Of a stretch of 29,812 bases of DNA, positions 2,482 through 25,589 are shown one piece after another. Within the stretch, counting starts at the first letter, position 1, and every line of letters starts with the position of its first letter. The DNA lies in the IMG/VR virus record IMGVR_UViG_3300043446_003016, positions 1 to 29,812 of that record. The stretch is one strand, 5' to 3'. Origin of the DNA: a virus. Made by a program: the position numbers and the translations under genes. The notes beneath the pieces are model-generated. The model had not been told where the DNA came from and did not search any database. It worked only from the letters and a program-made list of their open reading frames with translations.

Positions 2482-3972
2482 ATGTCAGTCGCCGATAAAC
2501 TACATCAACGACAAATGGCTCTGCGTAAGAAGTCGGGACTACCACATCCCGACTATTACAAAGAACTAGGTCATTCTTACAGCATTTCTGATGACAGAGA
2601 AAGACTTGCAAAGCAGGCCGAAATCAAAAAGAAATATAAAGTTGAATCAGTTGAACAACTTGATGAGATGCCAGAGTCAAGCATGAAGACACGTGATGTA
2701 CATGCTCATCTGAAAAAATCTGGTTGGTCACTGAAGAGAACTTCTGGTGGTCATGATGTATACGGCCATCCTAAGTCAAAAGAAAACATTTCTGTGCCAA
2801 GACATAAACAACTCAAAGCACCATTGATTCGTGGTATCATGAAAGCATCAAGAGTTTCTGAAGAGACAGAAGTGAATGAACAAATTCAAACTGGAAGAAT
2901 TTCATATGAATTGTTCAAAAAAGGCAGACATGTTTCTGGACCTTCAAAAAAACCATTTCAATCTTTCACTCAAGCATCACCTAGAGTAAACGAGGAACAT
3001 ATGAAAGAAGCAAAAGACCCACGTGAATACGATTACGAAGGCGATATGGCAATGTCACAACTTCGTTCGTTAATGTTCAATGCACAAGATTTGATTGACA
3101 TGATGGATGATAACACAAATCTTCCTGAATGGGTACAATCAAAGATTACATTGGCTGAAGATTATATTTCTACAGCGGCAAACTATCTGCGTGGTGAATT
3201 GAGCGAAGCAGCAAATCCTGCACAACAGGCAGCAATTGCTATCAACATGAAGAAAAAAGGTATCAAGCCTAAGGGTATGAAAGAAGAAGTTAAGCGATAT
3301 GTTCCTTCTCCACATGGTACTCCTGTTGCAAAGAAACCAAAAGGTGAATATGAACGCAAGGTTGACAAGTATTTGAAAAAGAAATACAACAAAGAAGAAG
3401 TTGAACTGACAGAAGGCCGTCCATCACAGCGTCATCCACTAGAAGGTCATGAGTATCATAAGAAATCTAATGAAGCGTTAGTTCACATTGCCAAAGATGC
3501 ACATGAAGCAGCAGAAGCAATGAAGAGTCATAACACAACAGCAGAAAACAAGTATCGTGACCAAGCAAATGATTCTGCGACTGTAAGACATTGGAGAAAA
3601 AAGAATGGCATGCCTGATTGGTACAAAAAGAAGTATGGTCATGTCAACGAAGAGATTGAGTATCTTGAAGAGAAGAATGCTCCGACCAATCCTGCATTGT
3701 GGTCTAAAGCAAAAGCACTAGCAAAACAAAAGTTTGATGTGTATCCTTCTGCATATGCCAACGGTTGGGCATCAAAGTGGTACAAGTCAAAGGGGGGTGG
3801 CTGGAAGACTGTAAGTGAAGCCGTTGACGAGCCAAGTGCAGCAGCAAGAACTCTATCCCGTAAAGCACAAATCGTAAGAGATGCTGCAAAAGGAAAAAAG
3901 CAAGAACAAGAAGAGGCATCGGACAAGTTTCAAAAAGACCCCGAATTGTCTAGCGATATGCAGAAAACATAA
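2482..3972 (+). CDS. Modular phage protein with HicA-like domain and DUF5872-like C-terminal module (496 aa)
   Basis: A second mosaic protein. Residues 55-62 hold VESVEQLDE-type linker sequence. Residues about 69-123 resemble a HicA/YcfA mRNA-interferase fold: KKSGWSLKRTSGGHDVYGHP followed by VPRHKQLKAPLIRGIMK, with the usual Gly-His (H91) retained. Residues 179-240 form a helical module starting DPREYDYEGDMAMSQLRS. Residues 318-388 are another helical module. Residues 402-442 contain KFDVYPSAYANGWASKWYK before KGGGW, matching my memory of DUF5872. Linkers EEVELTEG and EEIEYLEE separate modules. No HicB antitoxin lies nearby, so the HicA-like unit may be a structural or RNA-binding reuse. The gene follows the related protein by 2 bp and ends at a late-type promoter. 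Confidence 0.65.
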   Translation: MSVADKLHQRQMALRKKSGLPHPDYYKELGHSYSISDDRERLAKQAEIKKKYKVESVEQLDEMPESSMKTRDVHAHLKKSGWSLKRTSGGHDVYGHPKSKENISVPRHKQLKAPLIRGIMKASRVSEETEVNEQIQTGRISYELFKKGRHVSGPSKKPFQSFTQASPRVNEEHMKEAKDPREYDYEGDMAMSQLRSLMFNAQDLIDMMDDNTNLPEWVQSKITLAEDYISTAANYLRGELSEAANPAQQAAIAINMKKKGIKPKGMKEEVKRYVPSPHGTPVAKKPKGEYERKVDKYLKKKYNKEEVELTEGRPSQRHPLEGHEYHKKSNEALVHIAKDAHEAAEAMKSHNTTAENKYRDQANDSATVRHWRKKNGMPDWYKKKYGHVNEEIEYLEEKNAPTNPALWSKAKALAKQKFDVYPSAYANGWASKWYKSKGGGWKTVSEAVDEPSAAARTLSRKAQIVRDAAKGKKQEQEEASDKFQKDPELSSDMQKT

Positions 3973-7992: not shown

Positions 7993-8216
7993 AAAAATTT
8001 ATGATACAAATGCTCACCGCTGAAGGTGAGCAACAGCCTAGCAGCAAAAGGTTCATTACCTTTTTGGCGTTCCTTTTGCTTGCTACTGGTTTTATTGCCG
8101 AATTGTTTTTTGAAAAGAAATTGAATCCTCAGACACTTGATGTTATAATGTATGTTGTGCTTGGTGGATTGGGATTTACCGCAACCGAAAAATTTGTTTC
8201 GAAGGAAGAAAAATGA
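7989..8216 (+). CDS. Small two-helix membrane protein, holin candidate (75 aa)
   Basis: The GTG start overlaps the previous stop (GTGA). The protein has two hydrophobic segments (about 21-41 and 50-66) separated by a charged turn (FFEKKLNPQT) and a charged C-terminus. At 75 residues with two membrane spans it has the size and plan of many phage holins, and it sits between endolysin-linked genes. An alternative start at the ATG 12 bases downstream would shorten the N-terminus by four residues. I cannot separate holin from another small membrane protein by sequence alone. Confidence 0.65.
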   Translation: MKKFMIQMLTAEGEQQPSSKRFITFLAFLLLATGFIAELFFEKKLNPQTLDVIMYVVLGGLGFTATEKFVSKEEK

Positions 8217-15580: not shown

Positions 15581-15598
15581 TGTGACGGATCCGTTACA
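15581..15598 (+). promoter_or_regulatory. 18-bp near-palindrome upstream of pstS (candidate operator)
   Basis: TGTGACGGATCCGTTACA is an inverted repeat with only one mismatched pair in nine. It lies 38 bases before the pstS ATG, with a weak -10-like TATTTT at 15605-15610. It also contains two weakly Pho-box-like heptamers (TTGTGAC at 15580, CCGTTAC at 15591) 11 bp apart, the Pho-box period, each matching CTGTCAT at 4 of 7 positions. Either a repressor-type operator or a degenerate PhoB site is possible. Confidence 0.4.
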
Positions 15599-15635: not shown

Positions 15636-16658
15636 ATGAAGAAGTTTTTACTATCATTATTGCTATTCACAGGAGTCGCATCAGCAGCAGAATTTACTGG
15701 AGCCGGTGCGACTTTTCCATTTCCAATCTATGCAAAGTGGGCTGAAGCATATAAAGCACAAACTGGCATTGGTCTAAACTATCAATCAATCGGTTCGGGT
15801 GGTGGCATTCGTCAAATCAAAGCCAAGACAGTTGATTTTGGCGCATCTGATATGCCATTGAAGAAAGAGGAATTAGACAAAGAAGGTCTAATGCAGTTTC
15901 CAGCAATCATCGGTGGTGTAGTACCAGTATTCAACCTTGATGGCATTGAGTCAGGCAAACTGAAACTGACACCAGATGTAGTCGCAAACATTCATCTTGG
16001 TAAAATTACAAAGTGGAATGACAAAGCAATCACCGATTTGAATCCTGGTATAAATCTACCTGCAATACCAATCACAGTTATTCATCGTGCAGATGGTTCA
16101 GGCACCACATTCATCTGGACAAACTTTCTTGGTAAAGCAAATCCTGAATTTGCAAAAGTAGTCGGTGAAGGCACAGCAGTAAAATGGCCAACAGGTGTAG
16201 GTGGTAAAGGTAATGAGGGTGTAGCAGCACAAGTACAAAGACTGAAAGGTGCATTTGGTTATGTTGAATATGCATATGCAAAACGCAATAAGATTCCTTA
16301 TGCGTCACTAAAGAATCGTGATGGTAACTTTGTATTACCTGATGATTCTACATTCAAAACAGCGGCAGCAAATGCAGATTGGGCAAATGCACCAGGCATG
16401 TATCTATTGCTGACATGGCAAACAGGTAAAGATGCATGGCCAGCAACAGGCGCAAGTTTTATTTTGATGCACAAGCAACAAGCAGATGCATTGACAGGCC
16501 GTGCAGTTCTCAAGTTCTTTGACTGGTCTTACAAAAACGGTGGCAAAATGAGTGAAGAATTAGAGTATGTTCATATGCCTGCCGATGTGGTTAAACTTGT
16601 ACAAGACAACTGGCGCAAGGATCTAAAAGGTCCTGACGGTAACTCAATTTGGAAATAA
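15636..16658 (+). CDS. pstS: Phosphate ABC transporter substrate-binding protein PstS (340 aa)
   Basis: Periplasmic phosphate-binding protein that delivers phosphate to the host PstCAB transporter. The signal peptide MKKFLLSLLLFTGVASA is cleaved before AEFTG. Phosphate-binding motifs are visible: GAGATFPFP (start of mature protein), SGGGIRQI, VDFGASDMP and HRADGSGTTFIW. Length matches bacterial PstS, and no transporter subunits are encoded, as in cyanophages that carry pstS alone. It has a strong AAGGAG ribosome site and a palindromic candidate operator upstream, and the porin gene follows after 9 bp. It is an auxiliary metabolic gene for infection under phosphate limitation. Confidence 0.96.
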   Translation: MKKFLLSLLLFTGVASAAEFTGAGATFPFPIYAKWAEAYKAQTGIGLNYQSIGSGGGIRQIKAKTVDFGASDMPLKKEELDKEGLMQFPAIIGGVVPVFNLDGIESGKLKLTPDVVANIHLGKITKWNDKAITDLNPGINLPAIPITVIHRADGSGTTFIWTNFLGKANPEFAKVVGEGTAVKWPTGVGGKGNEGVAAQVQRLKGAFGYVEYAYAKRNKIPYASLKNRDGNFVLPDDSTFKTAAANADWANAPGMYLLLTWQTGKDAWPATGASFILMHKQQADALTGRAVLKFFDWSYKNGGKMSEELEYVHMPADVVKLVQDNWRKDLKGPDGNSIWK

Positions 16659-16667
16659 GGATAAATC

Positions 16668-18074
16668 ATGAAACTATTTAAAAAACTTTCTATCGTAATT
16701 GCACTAGCAGCGGCAATTCCTGCATATGCTGATGAGTATAAAGAAACATTGAACATTCTAAGAGAGAAGAATGTAATCACTCAACAAGAATATGAAACAA
16801 AACTCAAAGCATATGAAGAAAGAGAAGAAAACAAAAAATTTGCCGAGCAAAGAATTGACAAAGATGTTAGCGACAACAACAAGTGGAGACAAGCCAGAGC
16901 AAATGATGGTTCAGTCACCGAAAATGGAATTGGACTCAAAAGCAAAGATGGAAACAACACAGCACAATTTACAGGTCGATTACATATGGACTATCGACAC
17001 TACTCACCGAATTATGCTGTCGGTCAAACCACGGATTCGTATCAAAACTTAGCAGAAGTTCGTCGTGCTAGATTTGGTGTTCGTGGACAGTTTGCTAAAG
17101 ACTTCAAATATGAATTTGTGGGTAATTTTGGTAATGATGTTGGCGCAGCATCATCAACAACAAATTTAGATGTAGGATGGGTAAACTATGCAGCCAATCC
17201 TGAAATGCAATTTCAGTTTGGTTTGTTCAAAATGCCATTTAGTTTAGAGCAACTACAAAGTTCCAACAATATTGATATGATGGAACGTAGTCTGATTGGT
17301 CAAGTTGAAGGTGAATTTATTCCTGCAAAAGAAACAGGCTTTATGATTCATGGTGTGCCGACAACAGGATTGACCTATGCAGCCGCAGTCAGTCGTGGTC
17401 GTGGTAACAAAGATGTCGTAGCAGATAGTCTTGATTACATTGGTCGTGTAACCACAAACATTGCTGAACTCACTGGCAGCAAAGCATATGTCGCACATTT
17501 GGGTGCTGCATATAGTACAGGTGAAATTAAAGGTGGAGTTACACCATCAAGTGCAAGAACAGAATCAAGGTCTCAAAATGCTTGGTTTACCGGCCCTGCT
17601 CTAAGTGGTTTGACAACTAGAACACGCCAAGGTCTTGAAGCAGCAATAGCATATAATGCCTTTAAAATACAAGGTGAACAATTTGAATTCGTTTATGATC
17701 CTGCTGTTGGTGTAAATCAAGAAATTAAAGGGTATTATGTTTTAGCAACTTATAATATTACTGGTGAATCATACAATTATAAAGACGGTGTGTTTGGTGC
17801 AATTAAACCTAACAATTCTTTAGACAAAGGTGGCCGTGGTGCATGGCAAGTTGGTGTACGTATGAGTGAGTTTGATGCAAGTCCTATCGTAGTAGCGGCT
17901 GGCAAATCAAATCGTGCTACTGCTATGACATATGGCATCACATGGTTTGCTACCGACAATCTACGTTTTATGGTAAATTATGTTGATACAAAGTTTGATC
18001 AATTAGTTGGTGCATCGGGCAGTCGTGTAAAAGGTGATCAAGCAGTCATGTTCAGAAGCCAGTTGAACTTCTAA
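16668..18074 (+). CDS. Outer-membrane phosphate-selective porin O/P-type (468 aa)
   Basis: Outer-membrane beta-barrel channel of the OprO/OprP family (Porin_O_P). After the signal peptide (MKLFKKLSIVIALAAAIPAYA) comes a short coiled-coil with EKNVITQQEYETKLKA. The barrel opens with FTGRLHMDYRHY and contains the family hallmarks AEVRRARFGVRGQ, LDVGWVNY and FGLFKMPFSLEQLQS with MERSL. It ends in FRSQLNF, whose terminal aromatic is the signal for BAM-dependent insertion. The gene is 9 bp behind pstS with AAGG upstream, so the two are co-transcribed and together cover outer-membrane entry and periplasmic capture of phosphate. Ion selectivity is inferred from family and context. A full-length porin in a phage genome is unusual. 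Confidence 0.9.
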   Translation: MKLFKKLSIVIALAAAIPAYADEYKETLNILREKNVITQQEYETKLKAYEEREENKKFAEQRIDKDVSDNNKWRQARANDGSVTENGIGLKSKDGNNTAQFTGRLHMDYRHYSPNYAVGQTTDSYQNLAEVRRARFGVRGQFAKDFKYEFVGNFGNDVGAASSTTNLDVGWVNYAANPEMQFQFGLFKMPFSLEQLQSSNNIDMMERSLIGQVEGEFIPAKETGFMIHGVPTTGLTYAAAVSRGRGNKDVVADSLDYIGRVTTNIAELTGSKAYVAHLGAAYSTGEIKGGVTPSSARTESRSQNAWFTGPALSGLTTRTRQGLEAAIAYNAFKIQGEQFEFVYDPAVGVNQEIKGYYVLATYNITGESYNYKDGVFGAIKPNNSLDKGGRGAWQVGVRMSEFDASPIVVAAGKSNRATAMTYGITWFATDNLRFMVNYVDTKFDQLVGASGSRVKGDQAVMFRSQLNF

Positions 18075-18091
18075 AACAAAATAAAAAAATC

Positions 18092-18129
18092 GGTCACAAC
18101 TATCAGGTGACACTGGACCCGTAACCAGT
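18092..18129 (+). other. Two adjacent short hairpins in the porin-plcP intergenic gap
   Basis: GTCAC/GTGAC (18093-18097 with 18107-18111) and ACTGG/CCAGT (18112-18116 with 18125-18129) can fold side by side in the 61-base gap. There is no T-run behind them. They could be a weak terminator, a processing site or a leader for the next gene, which has no obvious Shine-Dalgarno. Confidence 0.3.
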
Positions 18130-18135
18130 ATTTCA

Positions 18136-18963
18136 ATGGACAAAAAATATCGTAGTATTTTCATTTCAGACGTTCACCTTGGAACGAAAGATTGTAAGGC
18201 TGAAGCACTAAACAATTTTCTCAAAAATAATTCGTGTGAAACACTTTATCTTGTTGGTGATATAATTGATGCTTGGAAAATAAAACAAAATAAATGGCGC
18301 TGGAAACAAAGTCACACAAATGTGGTAAGACGTATATTAGGACACGCAAAAAGAAATACAAGAGTGGTATATGTGTTAGGTAATCATGATGAATTTCTTA
18401 GACCATATTTACAATATAATTTAAATTTTGGTATGATTGAAATGCATAATCAAATAGAACACATTGGTGCTGATGGTAAACACTATCTTGTTATTCACGG
18501 AGACTTTTTTGACGGTATTACTAGACTTGCTCCGTGGCTAGCAATACTAGGAGACAAAGCGTATGACACCATTTTATCTTTCAATAGTAAATTCAATTGG
18601 ATCCTCCATAGAATGGGTGTTGGTTATTTTAGTCTTAGTCGTTTCCTTAAGCGCAAGGTAAAAAAAGCAGTTGATTTCATATTTCAATTTGAAAGTAATT
18701 TAGCGGCATATTGTAAGAAAAAAGGATTTGACGGTGTGATTTGTGGTCATATACATCAAGCAGAAATAAAAAAAATTGATGGTGTAATGTATATGAATGA
18801 CGGTGACTGGGTAGAATCAATGACAGCACTTGTTGAACACCATGATGGTAGATGGGAAATAATCACATGGACACAGGAGAGCGATAATGTGGTTGATGAT
18901 ATTGATAGCGGTACATCTGAACAATTCAAACGACATACCGGGAAGAATAAATCTACAATTTGA
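18136..18963 (+). CDS. plcP: PlcP/LpxH-like metallophosphoesterase (275 aa)
   Basis: Calcineurin-like metallophosphoesterase of the COG2908 group, usually auto-labelled UDP-2,3-diacylglucosamine diphosphatase. All metal motifs are present: SDVHLG (D12, H14), VGDIID (D42), LGNHDE (N83, H84), H121 in VIHGDFFD, and CGHIH (H205, H207). The length and the segments DVHLGT-DCKAE, ETLYLVGDIIDAW, TRVVYVLGNHDEFLRPY and NDGDWVESMTALVEHHDGRW agree better, from memory, with PlcP than with E. coli LpxH (about 240 aa). PlcP is the phosphate-starvation phospholipase C of alphaproteobacteria and marine heterotrophs. Placement behind pstS and a porin and ahead of a glycosyltransferase mirrors the bacterial lipid-remodelling context. 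The LpxH activity remains an alternative. Confidence 0.75.
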   Translation: MDKKYRSIFISDVHLGTKDCKAEALNNFLKNNSCETLYLVGDIIDAWKIKQNKWRWKQSHTNVVRRILGHAKRNTRVVYVLGNHDEFLRPYLQYNLNFGMIEMHNQIEHIGADGKHYLVIHGDFFDGITRLAPWLAILGDKAYDTILSFNSKFNWILHRMGVGYFSLSRFLKRKVKKAVDFIFQFESNLAAYCKKKGFDGVICGHIHQAEIKKIDGVMYMNDGDWVESMTALVEHHDGRWEIITWTQESDNVVDDIDSGTSEQFKRHTGKNKSTI

Positions 18964-19072
18964 TACACAACAACAATGTGAACAAACTTTACAGTCTATG
19001 ACGTATTGGTTAAAGTTTGACAATTTTAAGATTGAGGGAAAGTGCGTGAGGAAAGATGAAACTAAGCGATAA
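18887..19072 (+). CDS. Small protein with N-terminal hydrophobic helix and Cys pair (61 aa), overlaps plcP
   Basis: Starts inside the plcP-like gene (77-bp overlap) but has a good AGGAG (18875-18879) 7 bases before the ATG, and its end overlaps the glycosyltransferase start by 17 bp. It therefore bridges the two genes. MWLMILIAVHL is hydrophobic, and the rest carries two cysteines (QQQCEQT and EGKCVRK) with FKIEG between. The pattern MW...C...(F/Y)(K/R)(I/V)..C also appears in the 62-aa protein at 25326. It is probably a secreted or membrane-tethered small protein. Function unknown. Confidence 0.6.
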   Translation: MWLMILIAVHLNNSNDIPGRINLQFDTQQQCEQTLQSMTYWLKFDNFKIEGKCVRKDETKR

Positions 19073-19766
19073 AATCACAATTGTTATTCCAAGCAAAAAT
19101 GAAGAAAATTACATAAATCATTTGCTTAATTCTTTACGTCAACAGAAGATAGGTGACACTAGAATTATTATTGCTGACTGTTCAACTGACAACACCAGAG
19201 ATGTAATTAGAAACAATCGTGCTTTTCTGAATATTGAAATCATTGATGGTGGTCCTGTTGCTGTGGCACGAAACAATGCCGCAAAATTAGTCACCACACC
19301 ATATATTTTGTTCATAGATGCTGATGTGATATTTTTTGATAATTATATGATTCGTGATGCTGTTTTTGAGATTGAACAGAACGATTTAGATTTGATTGGA
19401 GCAAATATTAGATGTTACGAAGATGATTGGAAAGCGGAACTTGGGTTTTTTATTTTCAATAAAATCAATCAAATTTTGAAACATTTTTCTCCGTTTGCTG
19501 TGGGTGCCTTCATGCTAACCCGTAAGAGTAAGTTTGATGCGTTTGGGGGCTTCAATGAAAGGTTTTCTACATCTGAAGATTATTTCCTTTCAAGAATGTA
19601 TGAACCTAAAAAGTTTAAAATACTAAATCATTATTTTGGTCAAGATTCCCGTAGATTCAAGAAAATGGGGTACTTTGGTATGGGTTGGTATTTGATCAAA
19701 AACTTCATAAATCGTAATAATCAAAAGTATTGGGATAAATTGGACAACAGTAAATACTGGAGTTGA
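19056..19766 (+). CDS. Glycosyltransferase family 2 (236 aa)
   Basis: GT-A fold transferase. ITIVIPSKNEENYINHLLNS (7-26) is the nucleotide-sugar-binding opening. DCSTDNT (41-47), ARNNAA and LFIDADV with the D88-x-D90 metal motif follow, then GAFMLTRKSKFDAFGGFNERF and STSEDYFL with the likely catalytic E174/D175. No strong membrane helix is present, although GFFIFNKINQILKHF could associate with membrane. Directly following the plcP-like gene, it may glycosylate diacylglycerol released from phospholipids, as the glycosyltransferase linked to bacterial plcP does. That bacterial partner is usually of another GT family, so modification of LPS or phage surface is an alternative. Confidence 0.85.
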   Translation: MKLSDKITIVIPSKNEENYINHLLNSLRQQKIGDTRIIIADCSTDNTRDVIRNNRAFLNIEIIDGGPVAVARNNAAKLVTTPYILFIDADVIFFDNYMIRDAVFEIEQNDLDLIGANIRCYEDDWKAELGFFIFNKINQILKHFSPFAVGAFMLTRKSKFDAFGGFNERFSTSEDYFLSRMYEPKKFKILNHYFGQDSRRFKKMGYFGMGWYLIKNFINRNNQKYWDKLDNSKYWS

Positions 19767-21805: not shown

Positions 21806-22429
21806 ATGAACATATATGAGTCTTTGAAAGACACCAGAGCGGTGATTGATTCTTTGTTGGCGGATGCACCATTAGAGTTTGCTTCACATCCAATACCAAA
21901 TCCATTAGAAGAAACTAAAATTGCTGCACAGGCATGTGTGAGTGCCTTGTTGAACAATAAAAAAATATTTTTCATGGGCAATGGTGGTTCAGCAGCAGAA
22001 GCACAACATCTTGCTGGTGAATTAGTTTCTTATTTCAATTTACAGAGTGATGCATATGCCGCTATTGCTTTGAACACTGACACCTCAATTCTCACTGCAA
22101 TTGGTAATGATTTGGGTTTCAAGCATATCTTTTCAAGACAACTACAAGCACTTTCAAATCCTGGTGATGTAGCAATCTATCTTTCAACCTCAGGTTTATC
22201 AGAAAACATTCTTGAAGCAATGAAATTTGGCCACATGAATGGTCTAGTCAATGTTGCATTTACTGGTATGAAAACAAGATGGATGCATGACTACTCAGAT
22301 TATTACATTGCCATACCATCAACGTCAACACCACGCATACAAGAAGGTCATTTGATTTTAGGTCATTGGCTATGTGAATACATAGAGAAAACACTAGAAG
22401 AAAATGCCCGCCGAAAAAACCTGTCCTAG
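21806..22429 (+). CDS. gmhA: Phosphoheptose isomerase (sedoheptulose-7-phosphate isomerase) GmhA-like (207 aa)
   Basis: SIS-domain isomerase that turns sedoheptulose 7-phosphate into heptose phosphate, the first step toward the heptose of LPS core. GNGGSAAEAQHLAGEL (58-73) is the signature, with LSTSGLSEN as the phosphosugar loop, NTDTSILTAIGND, and STPRIQEGHLILGHWLCEYI (174-193) carrying the Gln/Glu/His active-site residues. The length is slightly more than the 190-200 aa of bacterial enzymes. AGAGG precedes the ATG. The later enzymes of the pathway are not in the window, so it would feed the host pathway or make a phage-specific sugar for the glycosyltransferase. Confidence 0.9.
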   Translation: MNIYESLKDTRAVIDSLLADAPLEFASHPIPNPLEETKIAAQACVSALLNNKKIFFMGNGGSAAEAQHLAGELVSYFNLQSDAYAAIALNTDTSILTAIGNDLGFKHIFSRQLQALSNPGDVAIYLSTSGLSENILEAMKFGHMNGLVNVAFTGMKTRWMHDYSDYYIAIPSTSTPRIQEGHLILGHWLCEYIEKTLEENARRKNLS

Positions 22430-23324: not shown

Positions 23325-23416
23325 TGAACTCAATGTTCAGGTATCTACTATTCTACATCGTTGTATTCTTTATGGTGATGATTTCACCATTTATTTTTTT
23401 TCTAATCACTAAATGA
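23324..23416 (+). CDS. Single-span membrane peptide (30 aa)
   Basis: MNSMFRYLLFYIVVFFMVMISPFIFFLITK is almost entirely one hydrophobic helix with a basic residue at each end. AAGGAG lies 6 bases before the ATG, inside a hairpin loop, and its stop overlaps the D,D-carboxypeptidase start (ATGA). The ribosome site and coupling are the main support, as no family is recognisable at this size. It could act as a leader peptide controlling the next gene or as a membrane partner for it. Confidence 0.55.
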   Translation: MNSMFRYLLFYIVVFFMVMISPFIFFLITK

Positions 23417-24303
23417 ATAAGAAACTTACACTCACACAGTGGCTTGTAACATTTTTTGTTTTATTTTTTCTGACGATAACAACCGCAGATGCCAAGTCTA
23501 AACACAAAGTTAAAAAGAAAAAGAAAGCAAAGCAGCAGACAGTGCAAACTTATAGCACTGTATCGGTAATGGTCACAAATATTACTGAGGGCACAATTAC
23601 AAGGGCACAAAACATTGATGAAGTCCGTGCATTGGCAAGTATGACCAAACTCATGACTGCTATGGTTGCATTAGACTATGATCGTGATATGAATCGTAAA
23701 CTTGTACTCAGTAAAAATGCAGGCAGTAAAATGCCACGCCTTGAGTATACCCGTGGTGAATTGTTTCATATGCTACTAATCAAGAGTGACAATGCAGCAG
23801 CAGAAACATTAGCGGCAGATTATCCCGGTGGTCGTAGACGTTTTATGGATCACATGAATTCAAAAGCATTGATGCTAGACATGTACAACACAAGTTTTGA
23901 TGATCCTTCCGGCTTGAGTAAATATAATGTAAGCACAGCCAGTGATGTAACACAGATGGTTGTTGAAGCGGCAAATTATCCAGAAATACGAAACATTTCT
24001 ACCAAAAAGATTACGACGATTGAAACGCCAGGTAAAAGAAAGAATAGAGTTTTAGTTCTACATAATACAAACAACGCTATATTGTCACAAGTAGAGGGTG
24101 TTCAAATAAGTAAAACAGGCTTCACAAATCCTGCCGGCTTTTGCGTGGCAATATTAGTACACAAAGTTAATGGTGAAAAAGATTATCATGAGGTAATTGT
24201 TGTGATGGGCGCACGAAATTCTGCTCACAGAGTTGACACTGTGAAACGAGTCGTGTACAATGGAGTGATAGGAGATGACTATGACACGACGAGCCGAGTT
24301 TGA
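23413..24303 (+). CDS. D-alanyl-D-alanine carboxypeptidase, peptidase S11 / low-mass PBP (296 aa)
   Basis: Penicillin-binding-protein-type serine enzyme that trims or cleaves peptidoglycan peptides. The three active-site motifs are intact: S76-MT-K79 in LASMTKLMTA, S125-D-N127 in IKSDNAAAE, and K234-T-G236 in SKTGFTNPAG. An N-terminal signal/anchor (to about residue 27) is followed by a very basic stretch (KSKHKVKKKKKAK) before the catalytic domain. The C-terminal PBP5 domain and amphipathic anchor seem absent, so it resembles the shorter D-Ala-D-Ala endopeptidase type (PBP7-like). This group is rare in phages; wall remodelling during infection or lysis is likely. Confidence 0.9.
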   Translation: MNKKLTLTQWLVTFFVLFFLTITTADAKSKHKVKKKKKAKQQTVQTYSTVSVMVTNITEGTITRAQNIDEVRALASMTKLMTAMVALDYDRDMNRKLVLSKNAGSKMPRLEYTRGELFHMLLIKSDNAAAETLAADYPGGRRRFMDHMNSKALMLDMYNTSFDDPSGLSKYNVSTASDVTQMVVEAANYPEIRNISTKKITTIETPGKRKNRVLVLHNTNNAILSQVEGVQISKTGFTNPAGFCVAILVHKVNGEKDYHEVIVVMGARNSAHRVDTVKRVVYNGVIGDDYDTTSRV

Positions 24304-24499: not shown

Positions 24500-24632
24500 G
24501 CCTTGGATGGCACCAGAATATGATGTGCCTGTACTAGAAAATGAAGAGATGTGGTCACAACGAGTGATTGATGACACTGCACGTTATTTGTGGTTAGATA
24601 TTGATAGGGATGAAAATGAGCAAGAAAAATAA
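24471..24632 (+). CDS. Small acidic protein (53 aa), start uncertain
   Basis: The reading frame contains PWMAPEYDVPVLENEEMW and DDTARYLWLDIDRDENEQEK. It fills a gap between two genes in a third frame and looks like a real small phage protein because of its Trp, Asp and Glu spacing. The ATG at 24471 overlaps the upstream gene by 29 bp; an ATG at 24507 (41 aa) lies just behind the stop and is the alternative. No clear ribosome site supports either. Function unknown. Confidence 0.45.
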   Translation: MNTLKANTNKPWMAPEYDVPVLENEEMWSQRVIDDTARYLWLDIDRDENEQEK

Positions 24633-25326
24633 CACAATTAGTATTATACCGGATCCAACAATTCAAGGGTTATTTCCTACACCAATTCTATTTGCAAGGT
24701 TTCATCGTGAATGGACCAAAGAGGAGAAAAAATTCTTTGAAAAAACTGCCGAATCTACGACACAAAACTCTGGTAACACAACGAGTTCTGATCGCTATGT
24801 GTTAGAACATCCGACAATGAAAGAAATAAAGCAATACTACCAGTATCATCTGGATTATTTCATGAGAGCAGTATATGCACCAAAATATCCAGTAGAAACT
24901 TATATTACGCAGTCGTGGATGAATTACACAAAACCTGGACAGTATCACCATAGACATGCACATCCGAATAGTTGGCTATCTGGATGCATTTACATTAGCA
25001 CAGAGCGTGAAAAAGATCGCATCACATTTTACAAAGAGGGGTATAATCGCATAGAGTTGCCTACAGAAAACTTCAACACATATAATTCATCATCATGGTG
25101 GTTTTCTGTGGGCACAGGTGATGTTGTTATCTTTCCATCATATCTGACACATATGGTAGAACAAACAACGAGTAGTGATACCAGAGTAAGTATCGCTATC
25201 AATACATTCTTAAAAGGTTATGTTGGTGATGAGCATAGTTTGACTGGCTTACATTTGAAAGAGCAAGACGATTCTGCACCACAGCGTACAGAACCACGAC
25301 CAGAAAATTTATCGGGTGGTTACTAA
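24616..25326 (+). CDS. 2OG-Fe(II) oxygenase family protein (236 aa)
   Basis: Fe(II)/2-oxoglutarate dioxygenase of the kind frequent in T4-like aquatic phages. Metal and cosubstrate residues fit: H-x-H in YHHRHAHPNSWLSG (H114/H116), H179 in FPSYLTHMVEQ, and R190 in DTRVSIAINTF. The double-stranded beta-helix runs from about 95 to 200, with TYITQSWMNYTKPGQ as its opening. The natural substrate is unknown; candidates are protein side chains, DNA or RNA bases, or metabolites. I chose ATG 24616 (AGGGA upstream) over an in-frame TTG at 24601. Confidence 0.8.
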   Translation: MSKKNNTISIIPDPTIQGLFPTPILFARFHREWTKEEKKFFEKTAESTTQNSGNTTSSDRYVLEHPTMKEIKQYYQYHLDYFMRAVYAPKYPVETYITQSWMNYTKPGQYHHRHAHPNSWLSGCIYISTEREKDRITFYKEGYNRIELPTENFNTYNSSSWWFSVGTGDVVIFPSYLTHMVEQTTSSDTRVSIAINTFLKGYVGDEHSLTGLHLKEQDDSAPQRTEPRPENLSGGY

Positions 25327-25514: not shown

Positions 25515-25589
25515 GCGGCTATCGTATAATGGATAATACAGTTCTCTTCTAAAGAACGAATGTGGGTTCGATTCCTGCTAGCCGTGCCA
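25515..25589 (+). tRNA. tRNA-Arg (anticodon UCU)
   Basis: A complete cloverleaf: acceptor stem GCGGCTA/TAGCCGT, D-stem GTAT/ATAC, anticodon stem GTTCT/AGAAC around CTTCTAA (anticodon TCT), T-loop TTCGATT, and an encoded CCA. It reads AGA and AGG. AGA is used often by this AT-rich phage, so the tRNA would offset a host supply tuned to other codons. Confidence 0.92.

Follow-up and report, generated by a model that had tools for sequence, protein, structure and literature searches.

The window analysed here is a stretch of 29,812 nucleotides of viral DNA (positions 1 to 29,812 of IMG/VR record IMGVR_UViG_3300043446_003016), in which an earlier reading made from the letters alone (the sequence-only reading) had pointed out a run of four genes: pstS, a phosphate-selective porin, a COG2908 metallophosphoesterase resembling bacterial PlcP, and a glycosyltransferase of family GT2. 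The four genes are present in that order as intact open frames on the plus strand of the window sequence, at the same coordinates, and each product scores above the cut-off of its family model. The first, pstS (15636..16658), encodes a periplasmic phosphate-binding protein (NF008171, 421.9 bits against a cut-off of 339; TIGR00975, 377 bits against 205) with an N-terminal signal peptide as judged by eye. After a gap of 9 nt follows the gene for an outer-membrane porin of the Porin_O_P family (16668..18074; PF07396, 150.8 bits against 20.9), then a plcP-like gene for a metallophosphoesterase that is a predicted phospholipase C (18136..18963; Metallophos PF00149, 48.8 bits against 21.5), in which no signal peptide was seen by eye, and then the GT2 gene, whose product is a glycosyltransferase of the GT-A fold (19056..19766; Glycos_transf_2 PF00535, 76.1 bits against 23.3). 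A Pho-box-like site with one mismatch, TGTAAC-N5-CGTCAC, lies on the minus strand at 15582..15598, reversed relative to pstS and 37 nt 5' of its start codon. All four genes are under purifying selection, with median ratios of nonsynonymous to synonymous substitution (dN/dS) of 0.089-0.134 (only 13 usable pairs for GT2), and all four products are among 14 window proteins found at 100% identity on a single 77-kb IMG/VR contig.

The metal motifs of the phosphoesterase are complete, as had been read from the sequence: D12, H14, D42, N83, H84, H121, H205 and H207 are invariant over 18 sequences, one of them the window protein and the other 17 relatives from viruses and bacteria. The genome-collection set, comprising the 80 closest homologues of the phosphoesterase, is mostly proteobacterial, with many Burkholderiales or Rhodospirillales, and the closest members share 49-56% identity with it. 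Identity is 53.7% over 246 aa to the Pseudomonas aeruginosa protein WP_003091510, encoded on a plasmid record (L161), where its gene is followed by a glycosyltransferase gene and then by a gene with an adenylate cyclase domain; from this gene order we infer that WP_003091510 and its neighbour are PA3219-PA3218, the PlcP and Agt1 pair. In the available text of the source, PA3219 is PlcP and PA3218 is Agt1 of P. aeruginosa, and PA3219 is 47% identical to PlcP of Phaeobacter MED193 (PMC8528852). Relatives of plcP were seen on three P. aeruginosa plasmid records, and a glycosyltransferase gene follows in the one that was opened. The window protein is also 46% identical to a Sinorhizobium meliloti protein (L160) encoded near an autoinducer synthase gene and a LuxR-type gene, a neighbourhood that we take to be the sinR-sinI region beside the published S. 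meliloti PlcP. The 3.7-Mb record L160, with its autoinducer synthase near plcP, is labelled pSymB and may be mislabelled; its 3.7 Mb agree with the size of the S. meliloti chromosome.

Similarity to LpxH is far lower (21.7% over 120 aa to Escherichia coli LpxH). With the NCBIfam LpxH models the window protein reaches 45.6 and 34 bits, below the cut-offs of 134 and 190, and PA3219-type PlcP lies below the same cut-offs (55.1 and 44.5 bits). For phylogenetic analysis, viral proteins more than 93% identical by position or shorter than 230 aa were removed (97 to 49), L001 and L002 were entered separately, and the genome-collection set was represented by 30 of its 80 loci. The 13 LpxH rows, 12 of them from genomes with a PlcP-like gene as well, split from all other rows with full support (100 in the 100-row tree, 100/100 in the 38-row tree), and the viral rows share a 60-row branch with the PA3219 row (support 96 in the 100-row tree). 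The motif GNRD is found in 13/13 LpxH rows, while GNHD is found in 49/49 viral rows, window included, and in 37 of the 38 other PlcP-like rows, the remaining one having GNHE. An identity as LpxH was thus rejected on bit scores, motif, low identity and tree, and by these sequence criteria the phosphoesterase is PlcP-like, not LpxH, as had been proposed. The comparison of structures that had been suggested gave a match to the fold of the LpxH superfamily but no discrimination between the two enzymes: the model (predicted local distance difference test, pLDDT, 78) has LpxH as its best match, with Z 17.2 over 188 residues, and no PlcP structure is among the matches listed. A best match to LpxH is what membership in one superfamily (COG2908) leads one to expect. 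Among the bacterial entries, the 669-kb contig L205 (1-10738), filed as a Methylotenera metagenome-assembled genome (MAG), reads like phage or other mobile DNA, with dense short frames mostly on one strand; its PlcP groups beside the viral PlcPs, and the contig is possibly a misbinned very large phage.

Among the matches listed, window PstS is 52-53% identical to bacterial-type proteins over 94-98% of its length, and 34-36% over ~90% or 42-45% over ~65% identical to cyanophage PstS. The porin has OprP (2o4v) and OprO (4rjw) as its best PDB matches. A tblastn search of the INPHARED phage records, which may not include those close to the window, found no porin relative. Among 229 genomes of a single class, the best porins are 41-42% identical (33-35% by tblastn), and no pstS was found near those bacterial porins in 30 short loci.

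To place the window among related viruses, we compared the best 80 of 271 viral plcP loci, the best 80 of 114 porin loci and the best 80 of at least 591 GT2 loci. The gene pstS lies directly 5' of the porin gene in 80/80 porin loci, and plcP follows the porin gene in 19 of the 76 with room. Where plcP is missing after the porin, genes that are adhE-like, SNase, GIY-YIG and other small genes were seen by eye, without family scans, and no second phosphorus theme was seen there by the same means. Of the 80 plcP loci, 24 show plcP preceded by pstS and porin in the same orientation and followed by a glycosyltransferase gene (20 with GT2, 4 with Agt; two of these four, L063 and L079, have a porin that is only distantly related and lies 2.4-2.8 kb off). 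The direct order pstS, porin, plcP, Agt occurs in L028 and L075. One further GT2 locus has the porin only, four Agt loci have pstS alone, and one locus with pstS and porin ends before the glycosyltransferase position. Conversely, 36 of the 77 plcP loci that bear a glycosyltransferase lack pstS and porin upstream despite at least 2.7 kb of sequence there, two of them (L034 and L036) having pstS elsewhere in the locus. We therefore rejected one fixed cassette of four genes: pstS-porin and plcP-glycosyltransferase are separable modules. The proposal of a cassette joining import to lipid recycling survives in the 24 loci that have both modules, but not as an obligate unit. From these 24 loci and the purifying selection on the four genes, their co-occurrence exceeds chance.

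The second module is defined by what follows plcP. A glycosyltransferase gene follows in 77 of the 78 readable viral plcP loci; in the whole set of 80 this is GT2 in 43 (window included), an Agt homologue in 34 and both in none, while one locus (L040) has neither and two end too early. The viral Agt homologues are 36-43% identical to Agt1 (33 listed). In the GT2 set, which covers the 80 closest of the relatives and so speaks for close relatives of the window gene only, plcP is directly 5' of GT2 in 75/75 loci with room, the other five ending too early, and Agt occurs in 0/80. When near-copies (>93%) are removed, 28 of the 49 viral plcP proteins are accompanied by GT2, 18 by Agt and 3 by neither that could be seen, and on the tree at least 11 switches between GT2 and Agt are required, 5 of them forced by well-supported branches (46 rows). 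Agt is the bacterial arrangement: in the genome-collection set an Agt1 homologue directly follows the plcP homologue in 41 of the 76 loci with at least 1 kb downstream, and none of the 80 loci gave a match to the viral GT2. Relatives of GT2 were found in 8/185 and 2/190 bacterial genomes at E 1e-15, with a best score of 79.5 bits. The expectation of an adjacent glycosyltransferase as in bacteria is thus borne out in the related viruses that carry an Agt homologue, but the window gene is not one of these. In a blastp comparison at E 10, GT2 does not match PA3218-type Agt1; it belongs to Pfam GT2 and is modelled with a GT-A fold (pLDDT 91.9, matching GT-A enzymes), against the annotation of Agt in glycosyltransferase family 1; a classification of GT2 as an Agt homologue was rejected on these grounds. 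A hydrophobic-moment scan of GT2 was uninformative. That two unrelated families exclude each other behind plcP is most simply explained if both do the same job, the glycosylation of diacylglycerol, and it is on this pattern of genes that we infer that GT2 would glycosylate the diacylglycerol left by PlcP. In a Burkholderiales MAG, one open frame of ~635 aa (L169, 4962-6869) matches PlcP (59% over 234 aa) and Agt1 (53% over 329 aa); it may be a natural fusion of the two, or else an artefact of assembly.

We further analysed the upstream regions of these genes for PhoB-type promoters. The scan used TGTMAY-N5-TGTMAY with at most one mismatch, within 150 nt of the start and on either strand, and upstream regions with fewer than 15 differences in 150 positions were pooled as one. 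The letters TGTMAY were widened after the top sites of an E. coli-type scan had been viewed, so that they were chosen on the same data. Among the distinct viral regions, 43 of 47 for pstS and 56 of 94 for plcP contain a site, compared to 19 of 708 random 150-nt stretches; before the other genes it was found in 0/38 regions (porin), 0/28 (SNase), 0/44 (BPL), 0/17 (RNRb), 1/15 (RNRa), 1/11 (Fd) and 5/61 (glycosyltransferase). Control spacers of 2-4 and 6-11 nt gave at most 3/47 for pstS and 7/94 for plcP, and 60 scrambled half-sites gave a mean of 2.6 and a maximum of 16 for pstS and a mean of 3.6 and a maximum of 21 for plcP, against the true 43 and 56. Bacterial plcP regions have a site in 12 of 41 cases, against 4 of 205 for random stretches. 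With the E. coli-type consensus at up to four mismatches, 46% of pstS and 42% of plcP regions have a site; for random stretches taken from these loci the figures are 13% and 16%, respectively, and RNRb and RNRa have none (0/27 and 0/19).

In PhoB-activated promoters the half-sites are followed, after about 10 nt, by a -10 hexamer. Among the forward sites, 26 before pstS and 49 before plcP, the hexamer TAAATA stands exactly 11 nt 3' of the site in 26/26 and 37/49, respectively; the other plcP sites have TAAATA at 7 nt in one case and none within 24 nt in 11. TAAATA occurs in 0.9% of random 24-nt stretches, and its distance played no part in choosing the motif. A scan of 20 viral records (3.83 Mb) gave 13 instances of the exact composite of site and hexamer, spread over 9 records, and none of the reversed control; six of the 13 lie before plcP, six before pstS and one before a gene of unknown function. 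On this sequence pattern, pstS and plcP of many relatives carry predicted PhoB-type promoters. The window belongs to the class with a reversed site before pstS (17 of the 47 distinct pstS regions), and two relatives of this class, L085 and L106, show by eye further tandem half-sites on the minus strand before pstS. In L036, L050, L067, L072 and L079, TAAATA ends ~4 nt before the plcP start codon (plcP start at 8001); a transcript starting at or near the plcP ATG there would make a predicted leaderless mRNA. A third gene with a composite promoter was noted in L061 (9626-9659), L383 (3315-3348), L036 (9896-9929), L345 (4716-4749) and L396; its Ala/Val/Glu-rich product starts MR(L/F)(E/D)DLA(A/V)RL, and in several phages the gene directly follows the glycosyltransferase gene.

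Phage pstS and the bacterial PlcP-Agt pathway are already known, and the locus can be set beside both. It resembles bacterial PlcP-Agt renovation (P. aeruginosa PA3219-PA3218, Phaeobacter MED193 plcP, S. meliloti PlcP) in having a PlcP-like enzyme followed by a glycosyltransferase, in the predicted Pho-box-type control of many viral relatives and in the Agt homologues of 34 of the 80 viral plcP loci; it differs in being phage-encoded, in the window partner GT2, which is unrelated to Agt, and in its position beside pstS and a porin gene. Like cyanophage pstS under host PhoBR (PMC10976474, as far as the source was available), it is a case of phage pstS with host-type regulation, here predicted, whereas window PstS is nearer to bacterial-type matches, is paired with a porin and lies beside plcP. 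Pelagibacter phage Mosig EXVC030M (MT647606) has a PlcP-like protein (49%) beside a divergent pstS, but no porin or glycosyltransferase is annotated in the stretch shown, and no Pho-box site with at most one mismatch lies between its phosphoesterase gene and pstS. The Mosig record annotates this phosphoesterase, next to the phosphate transporter gene, as a putative UDP-2,3-diacylglucosamine hydrolase, and the available text of the announcement does not mention phosphate, pstS or diacylglucosamine (PMC7892664). LpxH shares the calcineurin-like fold and metal site of the window enzyme and differs in its GNRD motif, its far branch and its cut-offs, which the window enzyme does not reach.

Taken together, these results suggest that the locus probably serves phosphorus economy in a phage that has T4-like viruses as its larger relatives, and that it consists of an import module (porin and PstS) and a recycling module (PlcP and glycosyltransferase). 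Phosphate, or a wider range of anions, would cross the outer membrane by way of the porin; in the periplasm, PstS would bind phosphate for the PstCAB of the host. The cytosolic phosphoesterase would act as PlcP, taking head-group phosphate off host phospholipids and leaving diacylglycerol, to which the product of the gene after plcP would add a sugar, an Agt homologue doing so in some viruses and the small GT2 in the window. In many relatives, phosphate starvation of the cell would induce the genes through host PhoB. For a stronger form of this proposal the chances seem about even: that a widespread group of T4-like phages carries a full host-type phosphate-starvation programme, with PhoB-switched import and conversion of phospholipid to glycolipid, in which the glycolipid step falls to a borrowed Agt in some phages and, in others, to GT2 as a new diacylglycerol glycosyltransferase specific to viruses, each having repeatedly replaced the other.

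Several results weigh against such a phosphorus-economy locus. Before the window plcP there is no site with at most one mismatch within 150 nt; PhoB-type promoters are predicted before pstS and plcP of relatives, but plcP in the window has no Pho box. Likewise, 38 of the 94 plcP upstream regions have no site, 11 of the 20 viral records lack the exact composite site, the matching 77-kb contig has none, and a scan of the entire window with the E. coli-type consensus gave 5 sites against 4.5 expected, which is no excess. A cyanophage study warns against relying on Pho boxes predicted in phages, and in the same available text it also showed PhoB binding to some phage promoters (PMC10976474). The approximately unbiased (AU) test barely rejects (p 0.0498) a tree in which the viral proteins branch off towards LpxH, outside the bacterial PlcPs, and the viral clade could therefore be an early sister of bacterial PlcP instead of being nested in it. 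As for the porin, the key residues of OprP include K25, K30, R34, R59, R60, D94, K109, K121 and R133. In an alignment read by eye, R34, R59, R60, D94 and R133 are kept and K25, K30, K109 and K121 are not. The description as a phosphate-selective porin thus stands for the Porin_O_P family; since these four lysines are not conserved, we refer to a predicted anion porin of that family with putative phosphate selectivity.

The size of the phosphorus gain also has to be considered. On starvation, lipid P atoms per cell fall from 0.54 to 0.27 million in MED193 and from 2.63 to 1.72 million in Dokdonia (PMC4796936, available text). By our arithmetic on these figures, the ~0.3-0.9 million P freed per cell would make ~1-3 genomes of 160 kb, one such genome holding 0.32 million P. 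The saving of lipid phosphate is perhaps useful, but small, and with so small a yield the membrane change itself could be the point. The PlcP-glycolipid pathway would then serve superinfection exclusion, the receptor environment or the late-infection membrane, with phosphate saving secondary. This we regard as unlikely, though it deserves weight: the freed phosphate is small against even one phage genome, a review proposes in its available text that phages bind P. aeruginosa differently after lipid renovation (PMC9804370), and the plcP-glycosyltransferase module often stands without pstS-porin, as in the 36 of 77 loci above. Against it, the PhoB-type promoters before plcP in relatives link plcP to phosphate starvation and not to every infection, and plcP adjoins pstS in many contigs.

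A second possibility, to which we give the same low weight, is that GT2 is not a lipid enzyme and glycosylates lipopolysaccharide, protein or DNA, while the neighbouring PlcP feeds other lipid routes. The structural neighbours of the GT2 model, TarS, TarP and WrtF, act on teichoic acid or glycans, there is no blastp match of GT2 to Agt1, and a gene with a SIS domain lies ~2 kb downstream in the window. GT2 has no characterised close relative, and its acceptor could be something other than diacylglycerol. Glycosylation of diacylglycerol is favoured over this by the constant position of plcP directly 5' in the 75 readable GT2 loci and by the mutual exclusion of GT2 and Agt in the slot.

It is very unlikely that the four genes were juxtaposed by accident in a hypervariable island where the phage gathers unrelated host genes with no common pathway. 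Such an island would agree with two modules that come and go independently between conserved genes, but not with pairs as tight as pstS-porin (80/80) and plcP-glycosyltransferase (77/78 readable loci), nor with one promoter type, rare elsewhere, that pstS and plcP of relatives have in common. Weakest of all, with hardly any probability left to it, is an LpxH-type lipid A enzyme, which the annotation of relatives (UDP-2,3-diacylglucosamine diphosphatase) and the common superfamily and fold (Z ~17) would allow, but which fails on LpxH bit scores much as PA3219-type PlcP does, on GNHD in place of GNRD, and on the tree split.

The surroundings of the four genes are those of a phage, with genes for a virion structural protein, endolysin, primase, thymidylate synthase and ribonucleotide reductase in the window flanks, the ribonucleotide reductase genes lying upstream of the four. 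Downstream are a nuclease gene and a gene with a weak Adhesin_E match below the cut-off (20.6 of 23.7 bits). Thirteen related viral records of 77-356 kb were scanned for a Gp23-type major capsid protein, which is present in 9, each of at least 155 kb; it was not found in the matching contig of 77 kb, possibly a fragment. Further downstream in the window are the SIS-domain (sugar isomerase-like) gene (21806-22429), a gene for a D-alanyl-D-alanine carboxypeptidase (Peptidase_S11; 23413-24303) and one for a 2OG-Fe(II) oxygenase (24601-25326). A tRNA-Arg(tct) lies at 25515-25589, and phage Mosig also has a tRNA-Arg(tct) near its pstS. Near the structural gene, 2482-3972 encodes a 496-aa protein with a HicA-like domain at residues 71-122.

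In the open-licence literature, as far as its texts were available, no report was found of plcP as a viral gene or together with auxiliary metabolic genes, nor of pstS with a phosphate-selective porin as phage auxiliary metabolic genes. A broad soil survey of phage phosphorus genes covers solubilising, mineralising, transporting and regulating functions, and in the available main text plcP, porin and phospholipase are absent (PMC10987575). Viral annotations as 'UDP-2,3-diacylglucosamine diphosphatase' may hide PlcP, and the promoter pattern offers a sequence marker for phosphate-responsive phages. Having been swapped with Agt repeatedly, GT2 is a candidate for a new class of glycosyltransferase acting on lipids. 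If phages do remodel the membrane lipids of their hosts, this would be a further phosphorus route, and our analysis suggests that such viruses may rebuild the membrane of the host to save phosphorus.

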